Below, one piece after another: positions 4,618-64,000 of a stretch of DNA of 64,000 nt; the first letter of the stretch is position 1; each line of letters starts with the position of its first letter. Source of the stretch: Verrucomicrobiota bacterium JB022. GTDB taxonomy: Bacteria; Verrucomicrobiota; Verrucomicrobiia; Opitutales; Oceanipulchritudinaceae. Position numbers and translations under genes: made by a program. The stretch covers positions 1 through 64,000 of the forward strand of contig JAUTCQ010000003.1 of NCBI GenBank assembly GCA_030673845.1. The letters are read 5' to 3'. The notes beneath the pieces are model-generated. The model saw only the letters and a program-made list of their open reading frames with translations, ran no database searches and was not told where the DNA came from.

Positions 4618-5718
4618 TTAGTGGCCGGGCGTGCCTTCTTCGACCGGCACCGGGGCGGTGTCGGTGGCTTGGCTACCGAGGTAGTTGCCGTAGGTGATAA
4701 GGCCGACCGCGCCAAAGAGCAAGGCTAGCGCAGCCCCCATGCCCGCGAGCGTCTTGGCGCGCGCGCCCTTCCATTCGCCGATCAGCACGCCAAAGCCGCT
4801 GCTGAGCAGGATCAGGATGATCATGTGGATCGCCCAGCTCGAGAACTTGAAATCGCCCATCAGCACGTGCCCACGCCCGTAGAAGAAGAATTGGGTGTAC
4901 CACATCAGTCCCGTCGCGGCGGCGAGCCCGTAGTTGCGCAACAGCTTGCCCTTGGCGGCATCCGGCACCTTGCCGAACTCGCCCCAGCTCCGGTTTTTGT
5001 TGGCGAGGATCAGCACGTAAACCACGGTGGTGACAAACGAGCCGTTCATCGCCGTGATGTACTTCACGTTTTCCTGATTCTGACCCGCGCCGAACTGGGC
5101 GGCCAGCTCGGCCACCGGATTGGCAGACTCAAGCGCAAAGTTGAAGACGGCGGAGAGCACGCCCGCCAGTACGCAGATCGGCAGGCCGATGTGGGCGTTG
5201 AAAGTCGTTTTGGTGCCGTCGGCCGCCAGCTCGTTTTCCTTTCGGAAGCCCGCCACGCCCGTCAGGATCATGGCCACAAAGCCCAGCACGACCCCGCCGA
5301 TCACGAGCATGCCGCCGTCCTGACTGAGCGTTGCCCCCAACTGGCCCTTGATCAGCGGCATGAAGAGCGTGCCGATGAGGCAGGAAAAGCCGATCGCGAT
5401 GGCGTAGGTGAGCGAAAACCCGATGTAGCGGATCGAGAGGCCAAAAGCGATGCCGCCTACGCCATAGAGCATGCCGTAGAGGAACGAGTGCAACATGGCG
5501 TCTTTGGGCGCTTCGGCCAGCACGGCGAAGAGCTGCCCGTCGGGCACCGAAAAGTAGGCCCCGATCCACGGCAACAACAGCCAGCAGACCATTGCCTGGA
5601 CCATCCAGTAGGTTTGCCAGCTCCACTTGTGCAGGAATTTTTGGGGCGAGTAGCACAAGGCGGCGCTGGCCGCTCCAACCGTGTGCAAAAGGGTTCCGAT
5701 CAGTGGGGCATCGTTCAT
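4618..5718 (-). CDS. rhaT: L-rhamnose/proton symporter RhaT-family permease
   Basis: A 366-residue membrane protein with about ten hydrophobic segments of the drug/metabolite-transporter superfamily, close to the length of Escherichia coli RhaT (344). It has the family's start pattern: a short N-terminal region, then SAALCYSPQKF, an aromatic WSWQTYW stretch, and a glycine-rich segment (GMLYGVGGIAFGLSIRYIG). RhaT imports L-rhamnose, and in some relatives L-lyxose or other deoxysugars, with a proton. Placement immediately before lactonase, SDR and FAH genes supports a 6-deoxyhexose substrate. A copy of the three-copy inverted repeat (5774-5888) separates it from the preceding CoA-transferase gene, so it may have its own transcript or a processed 5' end. 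No clear Shine-Dalgarno site is visible. Confidence 0.88.
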   Translation of the reverse strand: MNDAPLIGTLLHTVGAASAALCYSPQKFLHKWSWQTYWMVQAMVCWLLLPWIGAYFSVPDGQLFAVLAEAPKDAMLHSFLYGMLYGVGGIAFGLSIRYIGFSLTYAIAIGFSCLIGTLFMPLIKGQLGATLSQDGGMLVIGGVVLGFVAMILTGVAGFRKENELAADGTKTTFNAHIGLPICVLAGVLSAVFNFALESANPVAELAAQFGAGQNQENVKYITAMNGSFVTTVVYVLILANKNRSWGEFGKVPDAAKGKLLRNYGLAAATGLMWYTQFFFYGRGHVLMGDFKFSSWAIHMIILILLSSGFGVLIGEWKGARAKTLAGMGAALALLFGAVGLITYGNYLGSQATDTAPVPVEEGTPGH

Positions 5719-8207: not shown

Positions 8208-9283
8208 ATACTTGGAATGGGGGTGGCGCCGTGGGCGCTGGATTCGTAGGCCGCTTCGACGAGGGCCATGGTGCGGGTCGCGTCTTCTGCGCTGGTGGGG
8301 AGTTCGGTCGTCTCGCCGTTGGCCACGCGCTGGACGCTCGCCATCGTACCGATAAAGGCATCCGGGAACCAACTGCCCGAGAAGGGCACGGCTTCCCACG
8401 GGCCCGCCTTGCCGTCCTTGCCCACGCGGCAGATTTCAAGACTGTCGGGCTCGCCGTGCGGGTAGTTCATCAGCAAGCCGAGGCGCGCCTTGATCGAGCC
8501 TTTCGTGCCCTCCCACTTCACGTAGCTCTCCTGGTGGCGGAGGCCGAAGTTGTGCCCGTGGTTGGTCACGATGTTGGCCCGTAGCAGGTTACCGTAGTCG
8601 AGCGCCATGTTGGTGCGCGTCGAAGCGAGGTTTTGGGTGGCCGGATGCTGAAGCGTCTTGGCGTAGATGCCCCGCGGCTCGCCGAGAAAGGCGCGGATCA
8701 AATCAAGGTAGTGCACGCTGTGGTAGAGGATCTCCACGCGGGGAATGCCTTCGAGGAAAGTCCAGAGCTGCCACGGCATGTAGACCGTCACGCGCACCTC
8801 CATGTCGTGGATCTCGCCGATCTCGCCCGCGTCGATCAACTGCTTGGCCGCGAGAATATAGGGGGCGTAGCGTAGCTGGAAGTTGACGGCGGCCACGAGG
8901 CGCTTGGCGCGGCAGATCTTCAACAGCTCGCGTGCGTCTGCCAGGTTTTCACCAAAGGGTTTCTGGATCAGGACGTGCGCGCCGTCTGGCAGCTGCTCCA
9001 GCACAGTGCCGATCGCGTTGGCCGGCACCGCGAGGTCGTAGACGACATCCTCCGGCGCCTGGGCGATGGCGTTGCCCAAGTCGCGGTAGATGTGCGGAAT
9101 GTTGAAGCTCGCCGCCAGTCGCTTGGCCTTCACCTCATTCAGATCGAAGACGCCATGGACGGGGAACTCTGCCGCCTGATAGGCCGGGAGGTGGGCATCG
9201 CGGACAATGCCTCCGGCCCCGATGACGACAATCGGGCGCAGGCGCTGCGGCAAGGTGGGGCAAGGAGTGGGGAGACGGGGCAT
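8204..9283 (-). CDS. Gfo/Idh/MocA-family oxidoreductase
   Basis: A 359-residue NAD(P)-dependent oxidoreductase. The Rossmann motif is IGAGGIVRDAH (residues 21-31) and the family EKP-like loop is LIQKPFGEN near residue 132. A C-terminal alpha/beta domain follows. Family members act on sugars, inositols and sugar acids. Here it is the first gene of the minus-strand operon, so it may supply the sugar dehydrogenation missing from the oxidative deoxysugar route, though this is only positional. The ATG at 9283 follows a candidate promoter by about 13 bases. The stop overlaps the next start (ATGA). Confidence 0.82.
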   Translation of the reverse strand: MPRLPTPCPTLPQRLRPIVVIGAGGIVRDAHLPAYQAAEFPVHGVFDLNEVKAKRLAASFNIPHIYRDLGNAIAQAPEDVVYDLAVPANAIGTVLEQLPDGAHVLIQKPFGENLADARELLKICRAKRLVAAVNFQLRYAPYILAAKQLIDAGEIGEIHDMEVRVTVYMPWQLWTFLEGIPRVEILYHSVHYLDLIRAFLGEPRGIYAKTLQHPATQNLASTRTNMALDYGNLLRANIVTNHGHNFGLRHQESYVKWEGTKGSIKARLGLLMNYPHGEPDSLEICRVGKDGKAGPWEAVPFSGSWFPDAFIGTMASVQRVANGETTELPTSAEDATRTMALVEAAYESSAHGATPIPSI

Positions 9284-9302
9284 TTTATTTGCAAAAACAA
9301 GA

Positions 9303-9330
9303 TTTATATATGAAAAGACGCAAGCCTCAA
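9303..9330 (-). promoter_or_regulatory. Candidate sigma-70 promoter of the minus-strand operon, in the divergent gap with the IclR gene
   Basis: On the minus strand TTGAGG (9330-9325) and TATAAA (9308-9303) are separated by 16 bases, placing a start site near 9296, just before the ATG at 9283. The gap to the divergent IclR gene is only 49 bases, so one IclR-bound site could control both directions. I see no clean palindrome for IclR there. Confidence 0.4.
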
Positions 9331-9332
9331 AA

Positions 9333-10097
9333 ATGAGTACCCCCGACTATCGCGTGCCTGCCCTCGAAAAGGGGCTGGATATCCTCGAAGCCCTGGCCGC
9401 TGCCTCCATCCCCCAATCGTTGACGGATCTCGCTACCCGCCTCGATCGCAGCCCCAGCGCGCTCTTTCGCATGCTCAATTGCCTGGAACGCCGCCACTAC
9501 GTGATGCGCGACCCTGTCTCCGGCAAATACATCCTCTCGCTCAAGCTCTACGCCCTTGCGCACACGCACTCCCCTGTCGAGGCGCTGATCCGCGCGGCCC
9601 GCCGCCCCATGCAAGAGCTCTCCGAAGCGGTGCGCGAGTCCTGCCACCTCAGCGTGCTCGACCACGGTCAGCTCCTCGTCGTGCAGCAGCAAGACAGCCC
9701 CGAGCCGGTGCGTATCTCCATCGAGATCGGCGGGGTCTTCGATGCAGCAGCCACGCTCTCCGGTCGGCTGCTGCTCTCGCGCCTGCCCGCCGAGCGCCGG
9801 GCCGAAGCCCTTGCGTCCTCGCCTATTTACACCGGTTGGAGCAGCCGCGAGCGCCAAAACTTTGAAGCGGGCCTCGCCGAGATGGCGACGAAGGCCTTTG
9901 TCGCGGTGCAGGACGAAACTGTGGAAGGTGTCGACGACCTCGCCGCCGGCGTCGGGGGAGGGCAGGGGCCCTGGCACGCCGCCCTTACCATTACCCGCTT
10001 TCGCCGCCCCGGCGCCGCCTCCCGCCAGCCAGAGCTGGAGCAGCAACTCCTGCACGCCGCCCAGGAAATTACCACCCAACTCGGAATCGCTTTATGA
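9333..10097 (+). CDS. IclR-family transcriptional regulator
   Basis: A 254-residue IclR protein. Residues about 8-70 form the winged helix-turn-helix ([41 protein letters not shown]), followed by the effector-binding GAF-like domain ([23 protein letters not shown]). The frame is open upstream but ATG 9333 is the start that lies inside the divergent gap and gives standard length. It is divergent from the Gfo/Idh-led operon and overlaps the MaoC gene by ATGA. It most likely controls the operon in response to an organic-acid or sugar-acid intermediate, as is common for the family. Confidence 0.88.
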
Positions 10098-10735: not shown

Positions 10736-10794
10736 TTGACACTGGTATTTCATGAAACATAACTAGTGCCATAACTTATTTCATATGAAATAAG
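10736..10794 (+). promoter_or_regulatory. TonB-receptor promoter with two palindromic operator-like sites
   Basis: TTGACA (10736-10741) and CATAAC (10758-10763) lie 16 bases apart and form a plausible sigma-70 promoter. The palindrome TTTCATGAAA (10748-10757) fills the spacer. A perfect 20-base palindrome, CTTATTTCATATGAAATAAG (10775-10794), covers the region just after the expected start site. Both share the ATTTCAT/ATGAAA half-site. The 14-mer GTATTTCATGAAAC at 10745-10758 recurs exactly at 20221-20234 in the GH28 promoter. The layout fits repression by a dimeric regulator whose identity I cannot tell. The rest of the 293-base gap (10541-10833) shows nothing else clear. Confidence 0.65.
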
Positions 10795-10833
10795 TGGCCC
10801 CCCGAAACGCAATACCCCTCCCCTTTCCCCAAG

Positions 10834-13800
10834 ATGAAGTTCCGATCCGCTTCGAAGTCGGCTGAGCTGGCTAAGTCTGCCTCGTGTTTCCGTCACTTGA
10901 TGTGCGGAGCCTCGCGAGGTCTGGTTTACCTGCTGGCCGGGTCATCCCTGTTCTCCGCTGTCTCTGCGCAAGATACCTCCACTGCTCCGGCACCCGAGGC
11001 CTCTGCGCAAGCCCCCACTGGTTCCGGCGAAATCCGCGGCCGCGTCTTCAACGCGGAAACGGGTCGCGCTGTCAGCCGGGCTATCGTCACCATCGACGGG
11101 ACCTCCCGCCAGACGCTGACGAACGACTTCGGTGAATACTCGTTCTACAATGTCCCCTCTGGGCCCGTTCGCGTTCGCGTGAGCTTTACCGGTCGCGACC
11201 CGCTCTACCGCACGGTGGAAGTGCCGGTCGACGGTTCCGCCCAAAGCGACTTTACCTTCTCCGCCCCCACCGCGAGCGGTGAAGACGATGAGACGGTCTA
11301 CGAGCTCGATGCTTTTGTGGTGCGCGCCAGCGACTACCAGACCGCCAGCCAGATTGCGATCCAGCAGGAGCGCACGGCGCTGACGCAGCGGAACGTCGTC
11401 GACACGGACGCCTTCGGCATTGTGCCGGACGGTAACGTAGGCGAGTTCATCAAGTTCATGCCAGGTGTGCAGGTGAATTACGGCCAAGGATATTCCAGCG
11501 GCGCTGATGCGTCGAGCGTCTCGGTTCGCGGCCTTTCTTCGAGCCAGATTCCGATCACGGTCGACGGTTTGCCGATTTCTTCCTCCGTCCCGGGCTCCCT
11601 GACTCGTGAAGTGGCACTCGATACCCTTTCGATCAATAATGCCGCCCGCGTTGAAGTGATCAAGGTGCCTACGCCTGACCAGCCGAATGCCTCCATCGGC
11701 GGTACTGTGAACCTCGTCTCCAAGTCAGCCTTCGAATATCCGAAGCCCACGCTCCGTTTTCGAATCTGGCTGACGGTGAATTCGGAGAATTTTGACGATT
11801 TTTGGAAGAAGACCCCCGGGCCGGCAGATGAAAAGACCTACAAGGCGCTCCCCGGTGCTGAGTTGTCTTACGCCTACCCGGTAACGGACACTTTTGGTTT
11901 CACCGTCAACCTGGCCCAGTCCAACAGCTTCAACCCTGGGACCTCGGCCAAGACAGATTATAAGTTTGATGGGAATCGCGAGCTCGGGCCATACGTTAAT
12001 GCTGATGGCACTGTTATCGGTGATCTGCGCGAGGATAAAGGCGGCACCGGAGGTGTCTTTGGCGACGCCGCCCACCCCTACCTGAATACGATTTCGGTTA
12101 CGGATACTCCCCGGTCCTCGACGCGTACCTCTGGAAGCTTGAAGCTCGACTGGCGCCCTATTGAAGGGCATTTGCTGACGTTCAATATCCAGCACTCTAT
12201 TTACGAATCTCGCGAGGCCGCTCGGCGTTTCCAGATGTCCGCTGAAACTGACCGCGGGGTTATTAGCTTCGGTCCCGACCACATGGTCAGCGATGTGTAC
12301 AGTGGAAGTTCGGGGATCGATGTTGAATCGCTAGACCGCGAGGGGGATGCTACCTCCGGCTATGTCCGCTGGAAGTATACAAAAGGCCCGTGGGACGCAG
12401 AAGCCACCGCGAGCTATTCCCTTTCCAATGGTAGCTTGGATAGTAGCGGCAACGGACACTTTTCGAATGCCGAGCTGTCGATGGGAAATGTGTATCTGGC
12501 GCGCTTTGCGGATATCGACGACGGGCTCCCAGGCACCGTCGAGTATTATGGCCTTACTGAAGGAGTCCCTGCTCCTTATCCTTCGAATAGCGCTGCCCGC
12601 AAGGAACTCGCGAATCCTGCTCGACTGTCGGAACTGGTTGATCAAGGGGTGCTCTACCGGTTGGACCCAACAAAGCTGAGTTCCTATGAACTCGAGAGCG
12701 GCTATAATCCCAATAATCCGGCAGCGGGTAGCCTCGTTGTCAAAACGGGCCAGAGCGAAAGCCGTACTACAATCAAGACCTATAAAGCCGATTTGCGTCG
12801 TGAGCTCGACTTTATCCCCCTTGATTTCGTGAATCTGGCGGCTAAAGTCGGTGTATATCGCGAAGAGCGTGAAGACGAAAAATGGGGCGAAGGCGTGGGA
12901 CGTCGATTTGCCTATGTCGGGTCAGGGCTTTCTCCGGAGGATTTCCGCGACACGGAATATGTCGGAATCGACCCCGGCTTTGGCTTTGAGCCGCGTGAAT
13001 GGCTAGATGTCTATAAGCTTTACGATTATTATCAGGATAATCCTACTGCGTTTGATGATACGGATGACCGGCCAGTGTGGGATGGGCAACAATATACGCC
13101 CTCTCTTGCCGCACAGAACTGGGACACTTACGTAACTCAGCAAAAGTCGATAAAGGAAACCAAGGATGATTATTATTTCCAGCTCGAAAGTAACTGGTTT
13201 GATAATCGCCTGACAATCGTTGGAGGCTTTAGGCAATCATCATACGAACGTGAAGGCCGCGTCCCTTATCGTAACGGTAGCTGGAAAGAACTCCGGATAA
13301 GGCAAGATGAAGATGGTGACGGTTGGTGGGATCCGATCCCCGCTGTTTACAAGCCGGACCTGTCGCCCGTTTCTTTCGCGGATTATACGTCTGCAGGAAG
13401 GGATGCAGCCTTTTTCTATAATCCCACAATTTACAATTCCCCAGTGCTTTATACTGACCCCAACGGGACGGGAGAGCAGATCTCGATGCGTGAATATCTT
13501 GATCGGTTTGATGTGGTTTATAATACGCCTACCGATATGGAAGCGGAGCCTTTCGATCCGGCAAACCCTCTGGATGTAAATCGTCAGAGGATTGCGCGGG
13601 CAAAGTATGTGCCTGGGCGAGAGGTTGGTGGTAAAGTGAAGACTGATCCGTCGCCGATTATCAGCAGCAGTTATGACCTGACCGACAAGATTACGCTCCG
13701 TGCCGCGTGGTCTAAGGTGAACGGTATGCCGGAAATTGAAGGTGCCAAAGGTCTTGTTCGTGAATTCAGAATCGACGACAAGCCCTTGGGAGAGTCGGGT

Positions 13801-14640
13801 AATATTGTGATCCCTAATCGCAACCTTGAGCCCGAAATTTCCGAAAATTGGGACTTTAGTATCTCCTACTATACCGATAATGGCGGTAAAATTACCCTGA
13901 GTTACTTTATGAAAGAGGTAACCAATAATTCTACCGATTTGGTCTATTACCTTGGGTATACAGAGAATGAGGCTGCAGCACGGGCCTTGGCAGAATCTTT
14001 TGGTGTGCCGTTTGAATCCCGCTACTATAGCGATAACTGGGCCATTAAGACACCAGTGAATATCGATACACCGCAAAAGACTCGCGGTTACGAAATCGAA
14101 GTTCAACAAAGCTTGGGAATCTTGGGCGACTGGGGAAAGAATATCCAGATCTACGCCAGTATGTCGGACCAAGATACGGATGAGATCGAACAAGTTGTGG
14201 TCCTTTCCAACAATCCTAATGTTGATCCTGATCCAGTGACACCGTCTACATCGTTTAGTAGTGAACAGTCTAACCTTGCCATTAACGGCGGGTTGAATTG
14301 GGCGATCTGGCGCTTTACTACTCGTGTAAACGTTGCGTGGCGTGACGAGAAAATTACCCGAACCGCGGAAGCCTACTTGTTCCCGGATCCGTTGGTAGAT
14401 GATAAAACGGAGGAAAACAGAACTCCCATTTACTTCTATGAGCCTGCGCGCACGACAGTTGATTTGACTGTTAGCTACCGTTTCTGGAAAGAATACTACT
14501 TAAGCGTATCGGGCCGTAATATTACTAACGCGGAGCATGAGAGCTACGTCCGCGGTCCTGATCTCCCCGATTATGCGCATACTATCGAACGTTCCAAGTA
14601 TGGTGTGATGTGGACGGTCGGTATCAGCGGCACGTTCTAA
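10834..14640 (+). CDS. TonB-dependent receptor with N-terminal carboxypeptidase-regulatory-like domain
   Basis: A 1268-residue outer-membrane receptor. A long signal region (about 1-45, ending VSAQ) precedes a CarboxypepD_reg-like beta-sandwich (about 66-145: GEIRGRVFNAETGRAVS... LTNDFGEYSFYNVPSG), then the plug (about 180-300; VSVRGLSSSQIPITVDGLP and a RVEVIKVPTPDQPNASIGGTVNLVS stretch split by G) and a long beta-barrel ending in an aromatic residue (VGISGTF). It imports a large ligand with TonB energy, most likely a pectic oligosaccharide, because DUF3826, PL1 and TIM-barrel genes follow on the same strand. There is no SusD-like partner. Base composition falls visibly in the barrel half (about 12.7-14.6 kb). 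No Shine-Dalgarno is seen before the ATG. Confidence 0.92.
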   Translation: MKFRSASKSAELAKSASCFRHLMCGASRGLVYLLAGSSLFSAVSAQDTSTAPAPEASAQAPTGSGEIRGRVFNAETGRAVSRAIVTIDGTSRQTLTNDFGEYSFYNVPSGPVRVRVSFTGRDPLYRTVEVPVDGSAQSDFTFSAPTASGEDDETVYELDAFVVRASDYQTASQIAIQQERTALTQRNVVDTDAFGIVPDGNVGEFIKFMPGVQVNYGQGYSSGADASSVSVRGLSSSQIPITVDGLPISSSVPGSLTREVALDTLSINNAARVEVIKVPTPDQPNASIGGTVNLVSKSAFEYPKPTLRFRIWLTVNSENFDDFWKKTPGPADEKTYKALPGAELSYAYPVTDTFGFTVNLAQSNSFNPGTSAKTDYKFDGNRELGPYVNADGTVIGDLREDKGGTGGVFGDAAHPYLNTISVTDTPRSSTRTSGSLKLDWRPIEGHLLTFNIQHSIYESREAARRFQMSAETDRGVISFGPDHMVSDVYSGSSGIDVESLDREGDATSGYVRWKYTKGPWDAEATASYSLSNGSLDSSGNGHFSNAELSMGNVYLARFADIDDGLPGTVEYYGLTEGVPAPYPSNSAARKELANPARLSELVDQGVLYRLDPTKLSSYELESGYNPNNPAAGSLVVKTGQSESRTTIKTYKADLRRELDFIPLDFVNLAAKVGVYREEREDEKWGEGVGRRFAYVGSGLSPEDFRDTEYVGIDPGFGFEPREWLDVYKLYDYYQDNPTAFDDTDDRPVWDGQQYTPSLAAQNWDTYVTQQKSIKETKDDYYFQLESNWFDNRLTIVGGFRQSSYEREGRVPYRNGSWKELRIRQDEDGDGWWDPIPAVYKPDLSPVSFADYTSAGRDAAFFYNPTIYNSPVLYTDPNGTGEQISMREYLDRFDVVYNTPTDMEAEPFDPANPLDVNRQRIARAKYVPGREVGGKVKTDPSPIISSSYDLTDKITLRAAWSKVNGMPEIEGAKGLVREFRIDDKPLGESGNIVIPNRNLEPEISENWDFSISYYTDNGGKITLSYFMKEVTNNSTDLVYYLGYTENEAAARALAESFGVPFESRYYSDNWAIKTPVNIDTPQKTRGYEIEVQQSLGILGDWGKNIQIYASMSDQDTDEIEQVVVLSNNPNVDPDPVTPSTSFSSEQSNLAINGGLNWAIWRFTTRVNVAWRDEKITRTAEAYLFPDPLVDDKTEENRTPIYFYEPARTTVDLTVSYRFWKEYYLSVSGRNITNAEHESYVRGPDLPDYAHTIERSKYGVMWTVGISGTF

Positions 14641-14668: not shown

Positions 14669-15358
14669 ATGCAATTCAGTCTTCAAAACTTCCGATCTCT
14701 TCAACGTCTGGCGACCTTGGGTTGCCTGCTGACGATGGCCGCCTGTGCGAATGTGCAGGCGGTTGAGAGCCCCGCCGCAGATCCTTATGCGGCGGTGGCC
14801 CAGGGGCGGGCCGAAAAGATCGTGGCAAAGATCGAGCTTGATCGCGCCACGGCCGAGGCCGTCACTGAAATCGTCTCCCAGCAATACCAGGCCCTGAACA
14901 AGGTGCATGAAGCCCGCGATCAGGCGATCGCCGCCGTCCGTGAAAAGGCGGCGGGGCATCCCGACATGGTCGAGGCGGCCGTCAAGGCGATCGAGGCGGA
15001 GGCGAATGAAGAACTGTATGCGCTGAACGTCGCTTACAACGCCAGCCTGGCTGGCTATCTCAATGGCGAACAGGTAGATGCGGTCAAGGATGGTATGACT
15101 TATGGCCGCATGCCGCGCGACGTGGGCGTGTTTGACGCCATGTTGCCGGACCTGACGCCGGAGCAGCGCGCGCAAATCTACAGCTGGATCTGGGAGGCGC
15201 GCGAACATGCCATCACCGCCGGTTCTTCGAATGAGAAGCACTGGTGGTTTGATAAATACCGGGGGCGGATCAACAACTACCTCGCGCAGGCCGGTTACGA
15301 CTTGAAGCAGGCCGAGGCAGAGTGGCTGGAGCGCGAACGCGCCAAGAAGAGCCGCTAG
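14669..15358 (+). CDS. DUF3826 exported protein of pectin loci
   Basis: A 229-residue protein with a hydrophobic export signal (residues about 10-32). The stretch LTMAAC could be a lipobox, so it may be a lipoprotein. The rest is helical and charged, with the pattern typical of DUF3826: repeated A/E/V-rich helices, TYGRMPRDVG, and a C-terminal KYRGRINNYLAQAGYDLKQA. DUF3826 genes are known to occur beside pectate lyases in Bacteroidota and Verrucomicrobiota loci, but no biochemical role is established to my knowledge. It lies 28 bases after the TonB receptor stop and 21 bases before the PL1 lyase, so all three are likely one transcript. Confidence 0.75.
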   Translation: MQFSLQNFRSLQRLATLGCLLTMAACANVQAVESPAADPYAAVAQGRAEKIVAKIELDRATAEAVTEIVSQQYQALNKVHEARDQAIAAVREKAAGHPDMVEAAVKAIEAEANEELYALNVAYNASLAGYLNGEQVDAVKDGMTYGRMPRDVGVFDAMLPDLTPEQRAQIYSWIWEAREHAITAGSSNEKHWWFDKYRGRINNYLAQAGYDLKQAEAEWLERERAKKSR

Positions 15359-15379: not shown

Positions 15380-17014
15380 ATGTTCTACTCCCCCGCAAAG
15401 TTGAAAAACCTGGGATGGCTCTTCGTCCTCGGGGTAACTGCAGCACCCGTGATGGCTCAATATCCGACCATCACGGAAGATGTGGCAGCCGAATCGGCCA
15501 AGCGCCAGGAAGCAGCCGACCGTCGATCTGACGAGGCCTGGGAAAAGGCGTTGCCGGTGGTGAAGGAATGGGCGGCCAAGGGTAAGCCCTATATCCCGTT
15601 TGCCACCAACCCGCGAGATCTCCCGCAAGCCGATATCCCGGCCTTTCCGGGAGCAGAGGGCGGCGGCATGTATGCCTTTGGCGGTCGCGGCGGCCAAGTC
15701 TACGTGGTGACGAACCTCAACGACAGTGGCCCCGGCAGCTTCCGTGAAGCGTGCGAGGCCGGTGGCCCGCGCATCGTGGTTTTCAACGTGGCGGGGATTA
15801 TCCAACTAAAGGAGCGCATCCGCATCCGCGCGCCCTACATCACCATTGCGGGCAATACGGCCCCGGGCGATGGCGTGTGCATTGCGGGTGATACGGTGGA
15901 GCTGGAGACGCACGACGTCGTCATCCGCCACATGCGTTTCCGCCGTGGCGCCACTTGGGTGGGCGACCGCAACGACTCGATCGGCGGCAACCCCATTGGC
16001 AACATCATGATCGACCACGTCTCCACGAGCTGGGGGCTGGACGAAAACATGTCGATGTATCGCCACGTCTACCATCCAGACGGCGACCGCAGCACTTCTG
16101 GCATCAAGCTGCCGACCGTCAACCTCACGATCCAGAACTCGATCTCCAGCGAAGCGCTCGACACTTACCACCACGCCTTCGGCAGCACCATCGGCGGCTA
16201 CAACAGCACGTTTCACCACAACCTGTGGGCGAATAATACGGGCCGCAACGCCAGCGTGGGGATGATTTTCGACTTCACCTTTATCAACAACACGATCTTC
16301 AACTGGAAGCATCGGACGACCGACGGCGGCGATCATCGTAGCTATTACACGATGATCAACAATTACTACAAGCCCGGCCCCGCCACCAACGACGGGCCCA
16401 TCCAGTATCGTGTCATCAAGCCTGAAGCACGTCGCAGCAAGCACTTCAACGACGACTTCGGTCGCGTCTACGCAGCCGGCAACGTCATCGAGGGCTACCC
16501 GGAGGTGACGGCAGACAACTGGAACGGCGGCGTGCAGCTCGAAAGCGGATACGAAAACCCGGAGAAGCTGCTTGCGGACATCCGCACCGACCGCCCTTAC
16601 CCGCACTCCTACGTCTCCATCCAACCCGCTGAGCTGGCTTACGAGTGGGTGCTGCGCAACGCGGGGGCTACCTTGCCCAAGCGCGACCCGGTGGACGAGC
16701 GCGTCATCGAGATGGTCCGCAGCGGCAAAGTGGGCTACCAAGACGGCATCATTACCGACATTGCTCAAGTGGGGGGCTATCCGGAATACAAGGGCGAGCC
16801 TTATCAGGATTCCGACGGCGACGGCATCCCCGACGAGTGGGAGCTGAAGTATGGCCTCGACCCGCACGACCCCAGCGATGCCAGCCAAGACCTCAATGGC
16901 AATGGCTACGCCAACATCGAGGAGTGGATCAACGGTCGCGACCCCTCTGCGCCGCCAGCCCCGATCTGCACGCCCCATACCTATCAGGACCTTTTTTGGG
17001 GCACCAAGCTTTAG
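15380..17014 (+). CDS. Secreted pectate lyase, PL1-like, with C-terminal Ca-binding-like module
   Basis: A 544-residue protein. A signal peptide (about 1-27, ending PVMAQ) and a linker of about 55 residues precede a parallel beta-helix: PGAEGGGMYAFGGRGG, VTNLNDSGPGSFREA, FNVAGIIQL, PYITIAGNTAPGDG, IMIDHVSTSWGLDEN and HNLWANNTGRN. This is the pectate lyase C fold (family PL1). Residues from about 475 carry DSDGDGIPDEWELKYGLDP and DLNGNGYANIEEWINGRDP, a two-part calcium-binding module that also appears in other exported proteins of the window. It cleaves polygalacturonate by beta-elimination outside the cell or in the periplasm. It is third in the TonB receptor operon, which ends at a terminator at 17094. 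Confidence 0.88.
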   Translation: MFYSPAKLKNLGWLFVLGVTAAPVMAQYPTITEDVAAESAKRQEAADRRSDEAWEKALPVVKEWAAKGKPYIPFATNPRDLPQADIPAFPGAEGGGMYAFGGRGGQVYVVTNLNDSGPGSFREACEAGGPRIVVFNVAGIIQLKERIRIRAPYITIAGNTAPGDGVCIAGDTVELETHDVVIRHMRFRRGATWVGDRNDSIGGNPIGNIMIDHVSTSWGLDENMSMYRHVYHPDGDRSTSGIKLPTVNLTIQNSISSEALDTYHHAFGSTIGGYNSTFHHNLWANNTGRNASVGMIFDFTFINNTIFNWKHRTTDGGDHRSYYTMINNYYKPGPATNDGPIQYRVIKPEARRSKHFNDDFGRVYAAGNVIEGYPEVTADNWNGGVQLESGYENPEKLLADIRTDRPYPHSYVSIQPAELAYEWVLRNAGATLPKRDPVDERVIEMVRSGKVGYQDGIITDIAQVGGYPEYKGEPYQDSDGDGIPDEWELKYGLDPHDPSDASQDLNGNGYANIEEWINGRDPSAPPAPICTPHTYQDLFWGTKL

Positions 17015-18752: not shown

Positions 18753-20138
18753 TTAGTTGCGCCAGAGCACGTTGGCGGTGGTGCCTTCCTCTTCCGTCAG
18801 GCGGTCGCCCTTGGGGGTCTTGAGCACCACGTTGTCGAAGATCAGGTTTTCGGCGTGGGAGATCGTGCCGGGCTCTTCCGCCGCCTCGATGTAGAGATTT
18901 TCGAAATACACGTTTTGCACGCGAGCGCCTTCGAGGCCAAAGATCTCGATGGCCGTCTTTGGGTTGTTCGTGGCCTTGAGGTTGCGGATGCTGATGTTGC
19001 GGAAGTGGGGCAGGCCCTCTTCTTCGGGCACCGGCTGGGCCAGCTTTTGCCAGTGGTCGGGATGGTCCTCCGGGTTGTCGAGCACTTCGCCGTAGCTGTA
19101 GGCCGGGAACCAGTTGAGCTCGAAGCGGATGGGGCGGCGCACGTTTTCCATCTCGTTGTCGTGGATGTTGATCGCCTCGACGATGCCGCCACGGTTCTTG
19201 GCCGACTTGAAGCGCAGGCCGAAGGTGGTGCCGATCGCCTTGTTGCCGTAGACTTCCACGTTGCGCACGCTGCCGGAGGTCTCGCTGCCGATGGTGAACA
19301 TGCCCATGCCGCGTCGAGCGATGTTGTTGCGGATGATGATGTTCTCGGTCGGCAGGTTTACGGCGAGGCCGTCGGAGTCGCGGCCCGACTTGAGGGTGAT
19401 GTTGTCGTCGTTGCAGTCGATGTCGCAGTTTTCGACGATCACGTTGCGGCTGGAGTCCATGTTGACGCCGTCGGTGCTGGGCCCAAAGCCTTCCTTCTCC
19501 GGCACACCGTCGATGTTGTTGCGGATGGTGAGGCCGTCGACGTGCACGCGGTCGGAGTAGACGATGTGGCAGGTCCAGAAGGCCGACAGCTTCAGGTGCA
19601 GGTCGCGGATCGCCACGTCTTCACAGTTGTAGATCTGGATCAGGAAGGGGCGACCGACATCGTAGTCCACAACCCAGCGCAGGCCCTTGTCGGAGTATTT
19701 CTGGTTCATTTCCCAATACCAGGGCCAGAAGTGCTCGTTGCCACGACCGTTGATCGTCCCTTCGCCGGAGAGCGTCACGTGGTGTTGGCCACGTGCATTA
19801 ATGAGGGCGGCGGGCCAGTCCATCTCGATGCCGGCCACGCGGGTCCAGACGGTCGGGTAGTCCTCGGGGTCGATAGAGCCCTGGATCTCGGCCCCTTCCT
19901 GCACGTGGAATTCCACCCGGCTCTTGAGGAAGAGCGAGCCGACCAGATACGTGCCGGGGCTGACGACTACGCGGCCGCCGCCGTCGCGCGCACATACGTC
20001 GATCGCGCGCTGGATGTGTTCGGTCGTCAATTCGGAGCCGTCGGCGATGGCGCCAAAGTCTTTCACGTCGTAGTCGCGCGCAAAGAGCGGCAGCGCGAGC
20101 AGAAGGGGGAGGATGCGTAGCAATCGAGAGGCAAGCAC
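18753..20138 (-). CDS. Secreted GH28 polygalacturonase/rhamnogalacturonan hydrolase-like enzyme
   Basis: A 461-residue secreted beta-helix hydrolase. The GTG start at 20138 gives a good signal peptide (LLRILPLLLALPLFA). GH28 marks are DFGAIADG (27-34), STDGVNMDSS with D223, and CNDDNITLKSG with D244/D245; a GLRFKS stretch (307-312) matches the substrate-binding RIK motif. At the usual GHG position there is GMG (277-279), so the conserved His is Met278. This may mark an exo-acting or rhamnogalacturonan-specific subfamily, or altered activity. It hydrolyses galacturonide links in pectin. It is transcribed alone, from a promoter with the same operator-like 14-mer as the TonB receptor gene. Confidence 0.88.
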   Translation of the reverse strand: MLASRLLRILPLLLALPLFARDYDVKDFGAIADGSELTTEHIQRAIDVCARDGGGRVVVSPGTYLVGSLFLKSRVEFHVQEGAEIQGSIDPEDYPTVWTRVAGIEMDWPAALINARGQHHVTLSGEGTINGRGNEHFWPWYWEMNQKYSDKGLRWVVDYDVGRPFLIQIYNCEDVAIRDLHLKLSAFWTCHIVYSDRVHVDGLTIRNNIDGVPEKEGFGPSTDGVNMDSSRNVIVENCDIDCNDDNITLKSGRDSDGLAVNLPTENIIIRNNIARRGMGMFTIGSETSGSVRNVEVYGNKAIGTTFGLRFKSAKNRGGIVEAINIHDNEMENVRRPIRFELNWFPAYSYGEVLDNPEDHPDHWQKLAQPVPEEEGLPHFRNISIRNLKATNNPKTAIEIFGLEGARVQNVYFENLYIEAAEEPGTISHAENLIFDNVVLKTPKGDRLTEEEGTTANVLWRN

Positions 20139-20209: not shown

Positions 20210-20239
20210 ATTTAGCGGGTGTATTTCATGAAACGTCAA
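20210..20239 (-). promoter_or_regulatory. GH28 promoter with shared palindromic site
   Basis: On the minus strand TTGACG (20239-20234) is followed directly by TTTCATGAAA (20233-20224), and CTAAAT (20215-20210) lies 18 bases downstream of the first box. The plus-strand 14-mer GTATTTCATGAAAC (20221-20234) is identical to 10745-10758 before the TonB receptor. The site lies in the divergent gap between GH28 and GH2, so it could also affect GH2. Confidence 0.6.
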
Positions 20240-20354
20240 TGAATATCGAAAGTCGCGCGCGGTGTAGGCGGCGCCAAATTCAGACTGTTCGAAGCGGGTT
20301 AGGTTGCCGGGCTGTGGTGCGGTAGGGATGATGGTGCCAACCCCAGAAACGCCT

Positions 20355-22199
20355 ATGTTCTTCCGTTCCCTCCTCCTCATGCTCCTATCCTTGCCTCTGG
20401 GCCTCTCCGGCGCAGACCTGCTCGTCAACGCCCTCCAACGCCCGGGGCTTTCGCTCGACGGGCAGTGGGCCTACCTCGTCGACCCCTACGACGTGGGCCT
20501 CTACGACTACCGCGCGCGCGCCTTCGACCGCACCAACCCGCCCAGCGGCGGCTTCGCCCACGATCAGTCGTGGGACGACGAGACCCGCCTGATCGAATAC
20601 GGCTTTACCGACGACCGCACGCTCCCCGTGCCGGGCGACTGGAATTCACAGGACGAGCAGCTGTGGTATTACGAAGGCGGCATCTGGTACCGGAAGCATT
20701 TTCAGGCCCCGGAGGAGCGCGCGGGCAAGCGCTTCGTGCTCTACTTCGGCGGTGCCAATTACCAGACCGATGTCTACCTCAACGGTCGCAAGCTGGGCAC
20801 CCACATCGGCGGCTTCACGCCCTTCCAGTGGGAGGTGACGGAGCACCTCCGCGAGGGGAAGAACTCGCTGGTGGTGCGCGTCGACAACCGCCGCCACCCC
20901 GAGGCCGTGCCCACGACTTCGACCGACTGGTGGAACTACGGCGGCATCACCCGCAGCGTTCGCCTCGTGGAGCTGCCGGAGACGCACGTGGCCGACTACT
21001 GGGTGCAGCTCGACCAGGAGCAGCCCGACCGCCTGCAAGTCGATTTGCGCCTCGATGGGCCCGACGCCGCCGGCAAGACCGTGACCGTGCGCCTGCCGGA
21101 GCTGGGGCTCAGCCAGCGCTTTACTACCGGGCAGGATGGGCGTGCCCAAGGCACGATGCCGGTCAAGGGCCATACGCTCTGGAGCCCCGACCATCCGCAG
21201 CTCTACGATCTGGTGGTCGAGAGCCCGCAGGATCGGGTAGGGGAGCGTATCGGCCTGCGCACCATTGGCACCGAGGGGCAGAGTATCCTGCTCAACGGTC
21301 AGCCGATCTACCTGCGCGGCGTCTGCCTGCACGAAGAAAACCCGCTGCGCAGCGGCCGGTCCGTCACCATCGACGAAGCGCGCATGCTGCTCACCTGGGC
21401 CAAGGAGCTGGGCTGTAACTTTATCCGCCTCGCCCACTACCCTCACCAGGAGGCGGTGGCGCGCCTGGCCGACGAAATGGGGCTGCTGCTGTGGGAAGAG
21501 ATCCCCGTCTACTGGACGATCCAGTGGGAGAACCCCGATACGCTGGCCAATGCCCGCAACCAGCTGGCCGAGCTGATCCAGCGCGACCGCAACCGCGCGA
21601 GCGTCATCATCTGGTCGGTCGCCAACGAGACGCCGCCTTCGGACGCCCGCCTCGCCTTCCTGCGCACCCTGATCGACGACGTGCGGGCGCAGGATTCGAC
21701 GCGTCTGGTCTCCGCCGCGCTCGAAATGCACCCGCACCCGGATTACCCCGGCCAGCAGGTGATCGCCGACCCGCTGGGCGAATTCACCGACGTGGTGTCG
21801 TTCAACCAGTACATCGCCTGGTACGGCGGCGGCGACCCCGACAACCTGAAGAACATCCGCTGGAAGGTGCTCTACGACAAACCCATCATCGTCAGCGAAT
21901 TTGGTGCCGGAGCCGAGCCGGGCCGCCATGGGCCCCGCCTGAACCGCTTCACCGAAGAATATCAGGCCTGGCTCTACGAAAAGACGCTCCCCATGCTCGA
22001 CGGCATTGAAGGCGTCTCCGGCCTCAGCCCGTGGATCCTCGTCGATTTTCGCTCTCCGCGCCGCCTCCTCCCCGGCGTGCAGGACAACTGGAACCTCAAG
22101 GGCCTCATCGGTCGCGACGGCCAGCGCAAGCAGGCCTTCTACGTCCTGCAGGATTTCTACGAAAAGAAGGCCGCCGAAGCCGAAGGGAAGCAGGAGTAG
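20355..22199 (+). CDS. GH2 family beta-glucuronidase-like glycoside hydrolase, exported
   Basis: A 614-residue protein with a signal peptide (MFFRSLLLMLLSLPLGLSGA). The GH2 order is complete: N-terminal jelly-roll (WYRKHFQAPEE, YLNGRKLGTHIGGFTPFQ), immunoglobulin-like middle domain, and TIM barrel. The acid/base is E425 in WSVANETPPS and the nucleophile is E515 in IIVSEFGAGA, about 90 residues apart as in Escherichia coli beta-glucuronidase (E413/E504). Length is also that of GUS enzymes. It probably removes beta-linked glucuronic acid or galactose from rhamnogalacturonan side chains. The ATG at 20355 is chosen because it begins the signal. It is divergent from GH28. Confidence 0.85.
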   Translation: MFFRSLLLMLLSLPLGLSGADLLVNALQRPGLSLDGQWAYLVDPYDVGLYDYRARAFDRTNPPSGGFAHDQSWDDETRLIEYGFTDDRTLPVPGDWNSQDEQLWYYEGGIWYRKHFQAPEERAGKRFVLYFGGANYQTDVYLNGRKLGTHIGGFTPFQWEVTEHLREGKNSLVVRVDNRRHPEAVPTTSTDWWNYGGITRSVRLVELPETHVADYWVQLDQEQPDRLQVDLRLDGPDAAGKTVTVRLPELGLSQRFTTGQDGRAQGTMPVKGHTLWSPDHPQLYDLVVESPQDRVGERIGLRTIGTEGQSILLNGQPIYLRGVCLHEENPLRSGRSVTIDEARMLLTWAKELGCNFIRLAHYPHQEAVARLADEMGLLLWEEIPVYWTIQWENPDTLANARNQLAELIQRDRNRASVIIWSVANETPPSDARLAFLRTLIDDVRAQDSTRLVSAALEMHPHPDYPGQQVIADPLGEFTDVVSFNQYIAWYGGGDPDNLKNIRWKVLYDKPIIVSEFGAGAEPGRHGPRLNRFTEEYQAWLYEKTLPMLDGIEGVSGLSPWILVDFRSPRRLLPGVQDNWNLKGLIGRDGQRKQAFYVLQDFYEKKAAEAEGKQE

Positions 22200-62178: not shown

Positions 62179-64000
62179 TTATGCGCCCTGGTCTACCGGG
62201 GGTTGCTCAACCGGCACGTAGGCTTCGGACCAGGTCTGGTCGACGCCGACGATAATGCCGATCTCACGCTCCATGCTGTCGCCTTCGCCGTCGGTGACGG
62301 TGAAGCGGAAGCTGCCGAGGCCGCTGAAGCCGCTGACCGGCGTGAAGCGGGCGGTGACGCCGTCTTCGAGCATCTCCACGCTGCCTTGCGACTGGTCGAC
62401 GACGGCGTGGACCGGCGCGTCGGTGAAGCCGCGGGTATATTGGCTCAAGTCGATCTCCACCGAGCCGTCGACCGCGCAGGTGTAGTGCGGGGTGGCGAGG
62501 AAGGCGAGGTAGTCGTCGAGGTTGGTCCAGAAGTCGCCATCCGGGTCGGCATGGGCATCGCTGAAATCGCCGGCGGGTGAGTCGGTCGGGGTGCCGATGA
62601 GCGTCTCCCACCAGTCGGGCAGGCCGTCGCCGTCGGTATCCCAGCCGGCGGGGCGTTGCAGCTCGTCATACAGCTCCCAGCCGCCGACGTCTTCCTGGCT
62701 GTCGATCAGGCCTGCGTAGTTCGTCTTGCTGCCGCGGTAGGTAAAGGAGCGGTCGAGCGTGTTGGAGATCACACGGTCGTCGTGGCTGTCCTGCATGGGC
62801 AGGTTGCAGCCCACATCGGAGAGCACCTTCTTGTAGGCGAGCACGGCCGAATCTTCGGTGATGTGGGAGGGGAAGAACTGTTGGTCGACGTAGGCATCCG
62901 GGTGATCATTGTCGGTCGTGTAGCCGCCCGTCTGGTCTTCGGGTCCCACGTCGGTACGGGTCGGGTCGGAATAGTCGAGGATGTTACCCTCCATGAAGTA
63001 GCGCTGCTGGCCCGAGCCCACGCTTTCGTGCTGCGGGTTGAGGAACACGAGGCGAGTGGTGGAGGGGCCCTGCTTGTAGTAATTGCCGACGAAGTTGACC
63101 TCCTTGGCCCCACCGTCGGTAGCGCGGCTGCGCCAGTTGTAGACGATGTTGTTGCGCAGGTCGAGGCGACCGGCGTAGGCCCCCGTGGTGTCGAGGCCGC
63201 CCGCCATGCTCCAGTTGCGACCGGCGCAGTGGACGAGCAGGTTGTGGTGGAACGAGCCGACATCGCCGCCGATGCTGGCCGCATAGCCGTGCTGGGCGCC
63301 TTCGGGGTAGTTCTTGTGGCCGGCTTCGTTCAGGGCCTCGGCCAGGATGGTGCGCTGCAGGGTGATGTTGCGGCCACTGCGGGAGCTGAAGGCCTCGTCG
63401 ATCGACCAGCTGACCGAGACGTGGTCGTAGATCGAGTGGTTGGAGCCTTGCATGCCCGTGCCGTCGGAAGTTTGCTCGGCGGTGTTGCCCAGGCGGATGC
63501 GCATGTAGCGCATGATGCCGTCTTCCACGCCGCTGAAGCCCAGCTTGTGCTTGCGAATGGTGATGCCCTTGCCCGGAGCGGTCTGCCCGGCGATGGTGAT
63601 CTGGTCGTCGTTGTCCTGCACCGTGAGGTTCGACTCCAGCGTGATGGTGCCGGCTACGTTGAAGACGACGGTGCGCGGCCCTTCGACCTCTTCGATCGCC
63701 CAGCGCAGGCTACCCTCGCCGCTGTCGTTGAGGTTGGTCACGGTCACAACCTGGCCGTTGCGGCCCCCCACGGCGAAGCGGCCGTAGCCTTCGGCGCCCG
63801 GGAAGGCGAGGCGGCGCGGGGCAAATTCCCACACGTCGCCCGTGGCGGTGCCGGCGGCGTTGGTGGAGTCGACGCGCCAGTAATAGGTCTGTAGCGGGTT
63901 GAAGGCTCTTTCGACCTCCATCTCCGCCTCCGTGACGCTGCCGAGGTATTCGGGCGACTCCGGCGTGGCATTGGCGACGGCTTCCGGATCGGTGCCAAAG
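62179..64000 (-). CDS. Secreted PL1-like pectate lyase with fibronectin-like N-terminal part, truncated by the window edge
   Basis: The frame is open from base 63999 to a stop at 62179, with 606 residues visible; the true start lies outside the window. The visible N-terminal part ends a fibronectin-III-like unit (LQTYYWRVDSTNAAGTATGD). The catalytic beta-helix follows: PGAEGYGRFAVGGRNGQVV, VTNLNDSGEGSLRWAIEE, FNVAGTITLESNLT, ITIAGQTAPGKG, IYDHVSVSWSIDEAF and HNLLVHCAGRNWS. A DTDGDGLPDWWE calcium-like module and a C-terminal cadherin-like domain (PVSGFSGLGSFRFTVTDGEG) follow. It is a second PL1 pectate lyase, larger than the one at 15380. Confidence 0.85.
   Translation of the reverse strand, partial: FGTDPEAVANATPESPEYLGSVTEAEMEVERAFNPLQTYYWRVDSTNAAGTATGDVWEFAPRRLAFPGAEGYGRFAVGGRNGQVVTVTNLNDSGEGSLRWAIEEVEGPRTVVFNVAGTITLESNLTVQDNDDQITIAGQTAPGKGITIRKHKLGFSGVEDGIMRYMRIRLGNTAEQTSDGTGMQGSNHSIYDHVSVSWSIDEAFSSRSGRNITLQRTILAEALNEAGHKNYPEGAQHGYAASIGGDVGSFHHNLLVHCAGRNWSMAGGLDTTGAYAGRLDLRNNIVYNWRSRATDGGAKEVNFVGNYYKQGPSTTRLVFLNPQHESVGSGQQRYFMEGNILDYSDPTRTDVGPEDQTGGYTTDNDHPDAYVDQQFFPSHITEDSAVLAYKKVLSDVGCNLPMQDSHDDRVISNTLDRSFTYRGSKTNYAGLIDSQEDVGGWELYDELQRPAGWDTDGDGLPDWWETLIGTPTDSPAGDFSDAHADPDGDFWTNLDDYLAFLATPHYTCAVDGSVEIDLSQYTRGFTDAPVHAVVDQSQGSVEMLEDGVTARFTPVSGFSGLGSFRFTVTDGEGDSMEREIGIIVGVDQTWSEAYVPVEQPPVDQGA

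Follow-up and report, generated by a model that had tools for sequence, protein, structure and literature searches.

In the window, the 64,000-nucleotide stretch of Verrucomicrobiota bacterium JB022 that was analysed, one 14-bp sequence occurs in front of both a TonB-dependent receptor gene and a polygalacturonase-like gene, which raises the question of whether it is the operator of a pectin regulon and, if so, which protein would read it.

The repeated 14-mer and its palindromic family

Both exact copies of GTATTTCATGAAAC given in the preliminary description were confirmed, as was the TTGAC-type -35 box beside each of them (Table 1). The opposite orientation of the two copies relative to their promoters, which had also been pointed out, is nearly meaningless, because the site is palindromic. 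The argument that such sharing is unlikely to arise by chance stood in part: under a dinucleotide Markov model, the window should contain the 14-mer about 9e-5 times, but an exact shared 14-mer is by itself weak evidence, because 163 distinct 14-mers, mostly G+C-rich, recur there. Just 6 of these recurring 14-mers have 5 or fewer G/C positions, and 5 of the 6 are parts of the operator motif. The convincing evidence is the genome-wide count of the motif, rather than the 14-mer shared within the window.

The 14-mer belongs to a family of palindromes of the form TATTTCA-N(0-2)-TGAAATA. A perfect 22-bp palindrome that was absent from the preliminary description, ACTTATTTCATATGAAATAAGT, has its centre 32 bp from that of the first 14-mer copy; we refer to these two candidate operators as O2 and O1, respectively. 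Genome-wide, TATTTCATGAAA has 8 exact copies (0.08 expected under the Markov model) and TTTCATATGAAA has 4 (0.04 expected), with 0 for the reversed control in both cases, and the 10-bp core TTTCATGAAA is found at 15 places, compared to 1 for its reversed control. A near-match, TATTTCAAATGAAATA, is located at C3:65522, just beyond the window end.

Since the 10-mer count takes in ATG-AAA start codons (L024, L028 and L029), we built the argument on the longer forms. One could suppose that some of the counted matches arise from genes that begin with ATG AAA after TTTC and are not operators: TTTCATGAAA contains ATGAAA, several of its 15 places fall on start codons, as do some in genomes lacking the candidate regulator described below, and the reversed control gives no correction for such starts. 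However, the strong TATTTCA..TGAAATA sites of this genome are not start codons, are symmetric past the core and stand at fixed distances from TTGACA. Start codons account for only a minority among the 10-mer matches, and we regard this explanation as highly improbable. In four genomes, an operator-like word lies on the start codon of a gene encoding an L-fucose isomerase C-terminal domain (L028:10041, L176:8599, L180:8962 and L184:1768), which may reflect either a genuine operator or conservation of the start.

A LacI-family candidate regulator and its distribution

On another contig of the same genome, three sites flank a LacI-family gene (C15:347629-348708) and its SSF operon, and the encoded protein is likely the regulator that reads the sites, judging from sequence. 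It carries an N-terminal LacI helix-turn-helix domain (HTH; PF00356, E 1e-12, above the Pfam cut-off) and a C-terminal periplasmic-binding-protein-like domain (PF13377, E 1.1e-28), and its AlphaFold2 model matches the folds of RbsR, PurR and LacI. In this protein and its orthologs, the PxxxARSL-like hinge-helix motif that follows the HTH is absent, and a basic stretch is found instead (YVRQRKRTRS; YVRLRQRKRSR in the G003 and G010 orthologs). Residues 56-66 were modelled with pLDDT <50 and without a helix (AlphaFold2, this protein alone), which counts as weak evidence for a missing hinge helix because the model was built from five sequences as a single DNA-free chain. The hinge motif is typical but not indispensable, and several other LacI-type proteins of the genome also do without it.

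Close orthologs (E<1e-125) of the protein occur in 7 of 223 genomes of the same order, each of which has related sites: four in the family of the window (the present genome, G000, and G003, G010 and G011) and three in a second family (G029, G123 and G175). Weaker relatives, at 41-45% identity, are present in two further genomes. Within the window's family, the four protein-carrying genomes have 4, 3, 3 and 2 copies of TTTCATATGAAA and 8, 5, 3 and 5 copies of TATTTCATGAAA, compared to 0-1 and 0-2 copies, respectively, in the 13 genomes without the protein; a genome of the same genus that lacks the protein has 0 of either. In G123 and G175, TTATTTCATATGAAATAA lies about 115 nt before the LacI gene, and a second site precedes the next SSF gene. 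G029, whose ortholog is 62% identical, has mostly variant sites. Its paired sites at L249:2263, 2294, 11578 and 11609 have similar spacing with changed centres (TTTCATCTGAAA and TTTCAGATGAAA).

Starting from the protein, we also examined 15 ortholog loci (164 kb) from named genomes of Opitutaceae, Pelagicoccus, Ereboglobus and others, a set that overlaps with the above (L200, L204, L205 and L209 apparently are the G175, G010, G003 and G011 records) and in which L201 and L203 have an identical site layout. These loci hold 25 sites with spacers of 0, 1 or 2 (11, 6 and 8 sites, respectively), against 0 for the reversed control. Such sites were found at 12 of the 15 loci, and within 500 nt upstream of the regulator's own gene in 9 of the 15 orthologs; none was found beside the orthologs of L206, L211 (with just 98 nt upstream available) and L213.

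Target genes and promoter layout

Ten regions of the genome contain strong sites (Table 1). Seven of these clearly adjoin pectin or rhamnogalacturonan genes, one has a weak link and two are unexplained, as a plain count over the ten strong-site regions. The genome-wide scan proposed in the preliminary description places strong sites before pectate lyases, GH28, GH2 and GH106 enzymes, the TonB receptor and a sugar transporter operon, and its reading of a pectin regulon is supported and largely right. To that reading we add the 10-, 11- and 12-bp forms of the operator, a probable LacI-family regulator encoded on another contig, and two strong regions in which no sugar gene was recognised.

Table 1. 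Candidate operators, promoter elements and genes of the window, and the ten strong-site regions of the genome
Feature	Position	Strand	Basis or remark
-35 box TTGACA, TonB-receptor promoter	10736..10741	+	Sequence; TTGACA-N6-core layout repeated in other regulator-carrying genomes
Candidate operator O1, 10-bp core TTTCATGAAA (10748-10757)	10745..10758	.	In probable -35/-10 spacer
Candidate operator O2, perfect 22-bp palindrome, 12-bp core TTTCATATGAAA (10779-10790)	10774..10795	.
Candidate operator, 10-bp core (20224-20233)	20221..20234	.	Between divergent GH28 and GH2 genes
-35 box TTGACG, GH28 promoter	20234..20239	-	Sequence; points at GH28 gene
L-rhamnose symporter RhaT	4618..5718	-
IclR-family regulator	9207..10097	+	Pfam IclR; adjoins O1
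TonB-dependent receptor, first gene behind O1/O2	10834..14640	+	Pfam Plug, barrel, CarboxypepD_reg; start uncertain, later codon possible (about 10900)
DUF3826 protein, probable same operon as TonB receptor	14669..15358	+	PF12875; co-transcription inferred from spacing
Pectate lyase (PelZ-like), probable same operon as TonB receptor	15380..17014	+	NCBIfam pec_ly_PelZ E 1.2e-39, under equivalog cut-off
GH28 polygalacturonase-like enzyme	18753..20138	-	PF00295 E 8.5e-29; start codon ambiguous (20123 or 20138)
GH2 enzyme, divergent from GH28	20304..22199	+	PF02836/PF02837; start uncertain, 20304 or 20355
Pectate-lyase-like protein, gene extends past window end	62179..64000	-	L086:2179-5430 matches pectate lyase 9buj E 8.7e-40; candidate operator TTATTTCAAATGAAATAA at contig position about 65522
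Strong region: TonB receptor	window 10834
Strong region: GH28/GH2	window 18753, 20304
Strong region: pectate lyase extending off window end	site C3:65522
Strong region: SSF transporter, Fe-ADH, DHDPS-like operon	C15:347.5k		Two sites
Strong region: LacI gene, with PelZ-like pectate lyase divergent from it	C15:348.8k
Strong region: GH2/GH106	C15:387.7k		Two sites
Strong region: pectate lyase	C13:30533		PF00544
Strong region: esterase	C23:10525		Weak match
Strong regions without recognised sugar/pectin gene behind	C4:7569, C15:232985

The same sites stand before orthologs of several targets in three genomes of the same family. TonB-receptor homologs carry sites in G003, G010 and G011, and the homologs at L172:5837-9475, L181:1828-5415 and L188:13340-16765 have the same paired sites. 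Sites are also carried by GH106 and GH2 homologs in G003 and G010 and by the regulator-adjacent pectate lyase in G011, and the GH28 homolog of G003 (74% identical) is part of a gene pair behind site L171:3175. In G123, from the second family, sites are found at two TonB receptors, a GH2 enzyme and an SSF/Fe-ADH/DHDPS/kinase operon. Within the present genome, the pectate lyase of the probable TonB-receptor operon is about 52% identical to the one beside the LacI gene. No site precedes the rhaT gene in the window; the RhaT homologs of G003, G010 and G011 are divergent from the TonB gene across a shared O1/O2 region.

Two strong sites (L020:7549-7580 and L025:9985) lie near no recognised sugar gene. 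The proteins near them form a family without a Pfam or PDB match that is repeated beside sites in G003, G010 and G011, and a PDB search with the domain-less targets of L020, L025 and L031 gave no match. Genes for AraC-family regulators lie near several sites (L028:10205, L031:10921 and L174:9288), and a second layer of control by such regulators is possible.

The sites occupy fixed positions in their promoters, with a 10- or 11-bp core 6-7 nt after TTGACA and, 33-37 nt after it, usually a 12-bp core. The core of O1 starts 6 nt after its TTGACA; the GH28 promoter, in which the -35 box abuts the core (N0), is an exception to the N6-7 rule. Searching all 223 genomes for TTGACA-N(6-36)-TTTCA-N(0-2)-TGAAA yielded 24 sites in the 7 protein-carrying genomes (3.4 per genome) and 48 in the 216 others (0.22 per genome). 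Distances of 6-7 or 33-36 account for 23 of the 24 matches in genomes with the protein and 11 of the 48 in genomes without it, for which Fisher values serve as guides only, because the distance classes were partly picked after viewing some of the loci and the genomes are related. The core measures 10 or 11 bp in all 10 sites at N6-7 and 12 bp in 9 of the 13 at N33-36; two of the remaining four are the element CCTTTTCCTTTCATGAAA, also present in the protein-less G102, and these two are probably start codons. The arrangement TTGACA-N36-TTTCATGAAA preceded by CCTTTTCC was seen at L250:5944, G102:C3:120577 and G175:C11:1085299, one of them in a genome without the LacI protein, and is probably a conserved start codon region outside the regulon. 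We also inspected 27 sites, almost all of them in genomes that lack a close ortholog; none had an adjacent TTGAC, and many were inside genes or on start codons. Transcription starts are guesses, because the -10 boxes are weak.

Candidate readings and known regulons

Taken together, we consider it very probable that the 14-mer serves as an operator in a pectin/rhamnogalacturonan regulon, with the C15 LacI-family protein as its likely regulator, a repressor that would be released by a pectin or rhamnogalacturonan product. The sequences themselves show the positions, counts and conservation of the sites and their co-occurrence with the protein, whereas binding, repression and the effector are inferred. 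A LacI dimer would bind the inverted half-sites TTTCA/TGAAA. At the TonB promoter, O1 immediately follows the -35 box, and O2 is placed roughly 30 bp beyond it, close to the presumed transcription start, so that a repressor bound at both would keep RNA polymerase out. Some product of pectin or rhamnogalacturonan breakdown would then free the repressor, and genes for uptake and degradation throughout the genome, along with the regulator's own gene, would be switched on.

The IclR-family regulator of the window is a nearer candidate in position, as its gene ends about 650 bp before O1 and the protein is weakly KdgR/PcaR-like; IclR proteins are known to bind palindromes containing GAAA/TTTC, and KdgR, itself of the IclR family, controls pectin genes in enterobacteria. 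However, at 1e-20 it has no match in G010, G011 or G029 and a relative of only 35% identity in G003, while G003, G010 and G011 keep the same operators at homologous promoters, and there is no site directly in front of its own gene. We therefore rejected it on the basis of its distribution, given its absence at 1e-20 from the motif-bearing G010 and G011, and a KdgR-like reading of the 14-mer by this protein appears extremely doubtful. That the C15 protein acts instead as an activator or dual regulator also seems improbable: sequence does not show the direction of control, but O1, adjoining the -35 box on its downstream side, and O2, close to the presumed transcription start or past it, occupy positions typical of repression.

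Somewhat less improbable, though still unlikely, is a division of labour in which the two core lengths have separate readers, only one of them the LacI protein. Core length tracks position in the promoters, as described above, a single fixed spacing is the usual case for LacI proteins (PMC4052901) and some genomes have a second relative at 43-45% identity. Against this, both forms go together with the LacI protein across genomes. A single protein probably reads both core lengths, because G000 and G011 have both forms and a single close member of the subfamily each. The more specific proposal that one hinge-altered LacI repressor reads 10-, 11- and 12-bp operators, with short cores placed just behind the -35 box and 12-bp cores roughly 30 bp beyond them, so that core length would suit promoter position, may or may not hold, and we give it even chances.

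As in the local sugar regulons of LacI/GalR proteins (PMC4052901), the present system combines a LacI HTH and a periplasmic-binding-protein-like domain with palindromic operators and a site at the regulator's own gene (autoregulation). In a survey of 1303 LacI regulators from seven phyla, Verrucomicrobiota not included, 1173 had operators with a central CG, odd palindromes made up 4% and spacing was usually constant inside an orthologous group (PMC4052901, Ravcheev et al. 2014). The pectin sites, in contrast, have AT or TA centres without the central CG, include odd 11-bp forms and vary in spacing over three core lengths (10, 11 and 12), and the hinge motif of the C15 protein and its orthologs is changed. 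LacI-family regulators of rhamnogalacturonide and rhamnose genes, RhiR and RhmR/RhaR, are known from other phyla, with motifs that are 20-bp palindromes in Rhizobiales, Erwinia, Actinobacteria and Chloroflexi (PMC3870299, Rodionova et al. 2013); they share the protein family and the rhamnogalacturonan and rhamnose targets with the present system, but the motif description in that paper sets their consensus apart. Enterobacterial KdgR resembles it in governing a multi-operon pectin regulon, but is of another protein family, whose local member is excluded by its distribution. In the open-access literature, we found no LacI regulon in Verrucomicrobiota. Because rhamnogalacturonide LacI regulators are known elsewhere, and given the AT/TA centre, varying spacing and changed hinge, the regulon proposed here is of a familiar type, while its host group is new and its operator unusual. 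For the Opitutales, a polysaccharide-degrading group of Verrucomicrobiota, it supplies a candidate regulator, operators and targets of pectin use that can be put to the test, and if a single hinge-altered LacI protein does read several spacings without a central CG, it would bear on the part that the hinge plays in setting operator geometry among LacI-family proteins.

LacI proteins that form a sister group, with 41-45% identity, are encoded at G003:C34:10489-11556, G010:C102:1271-2338, G043:C60:42960-44048 and G043:C44:27968-29044, and in the two of these sequences that were read, G003:C34 and G043:C60, the hinge is also changed.
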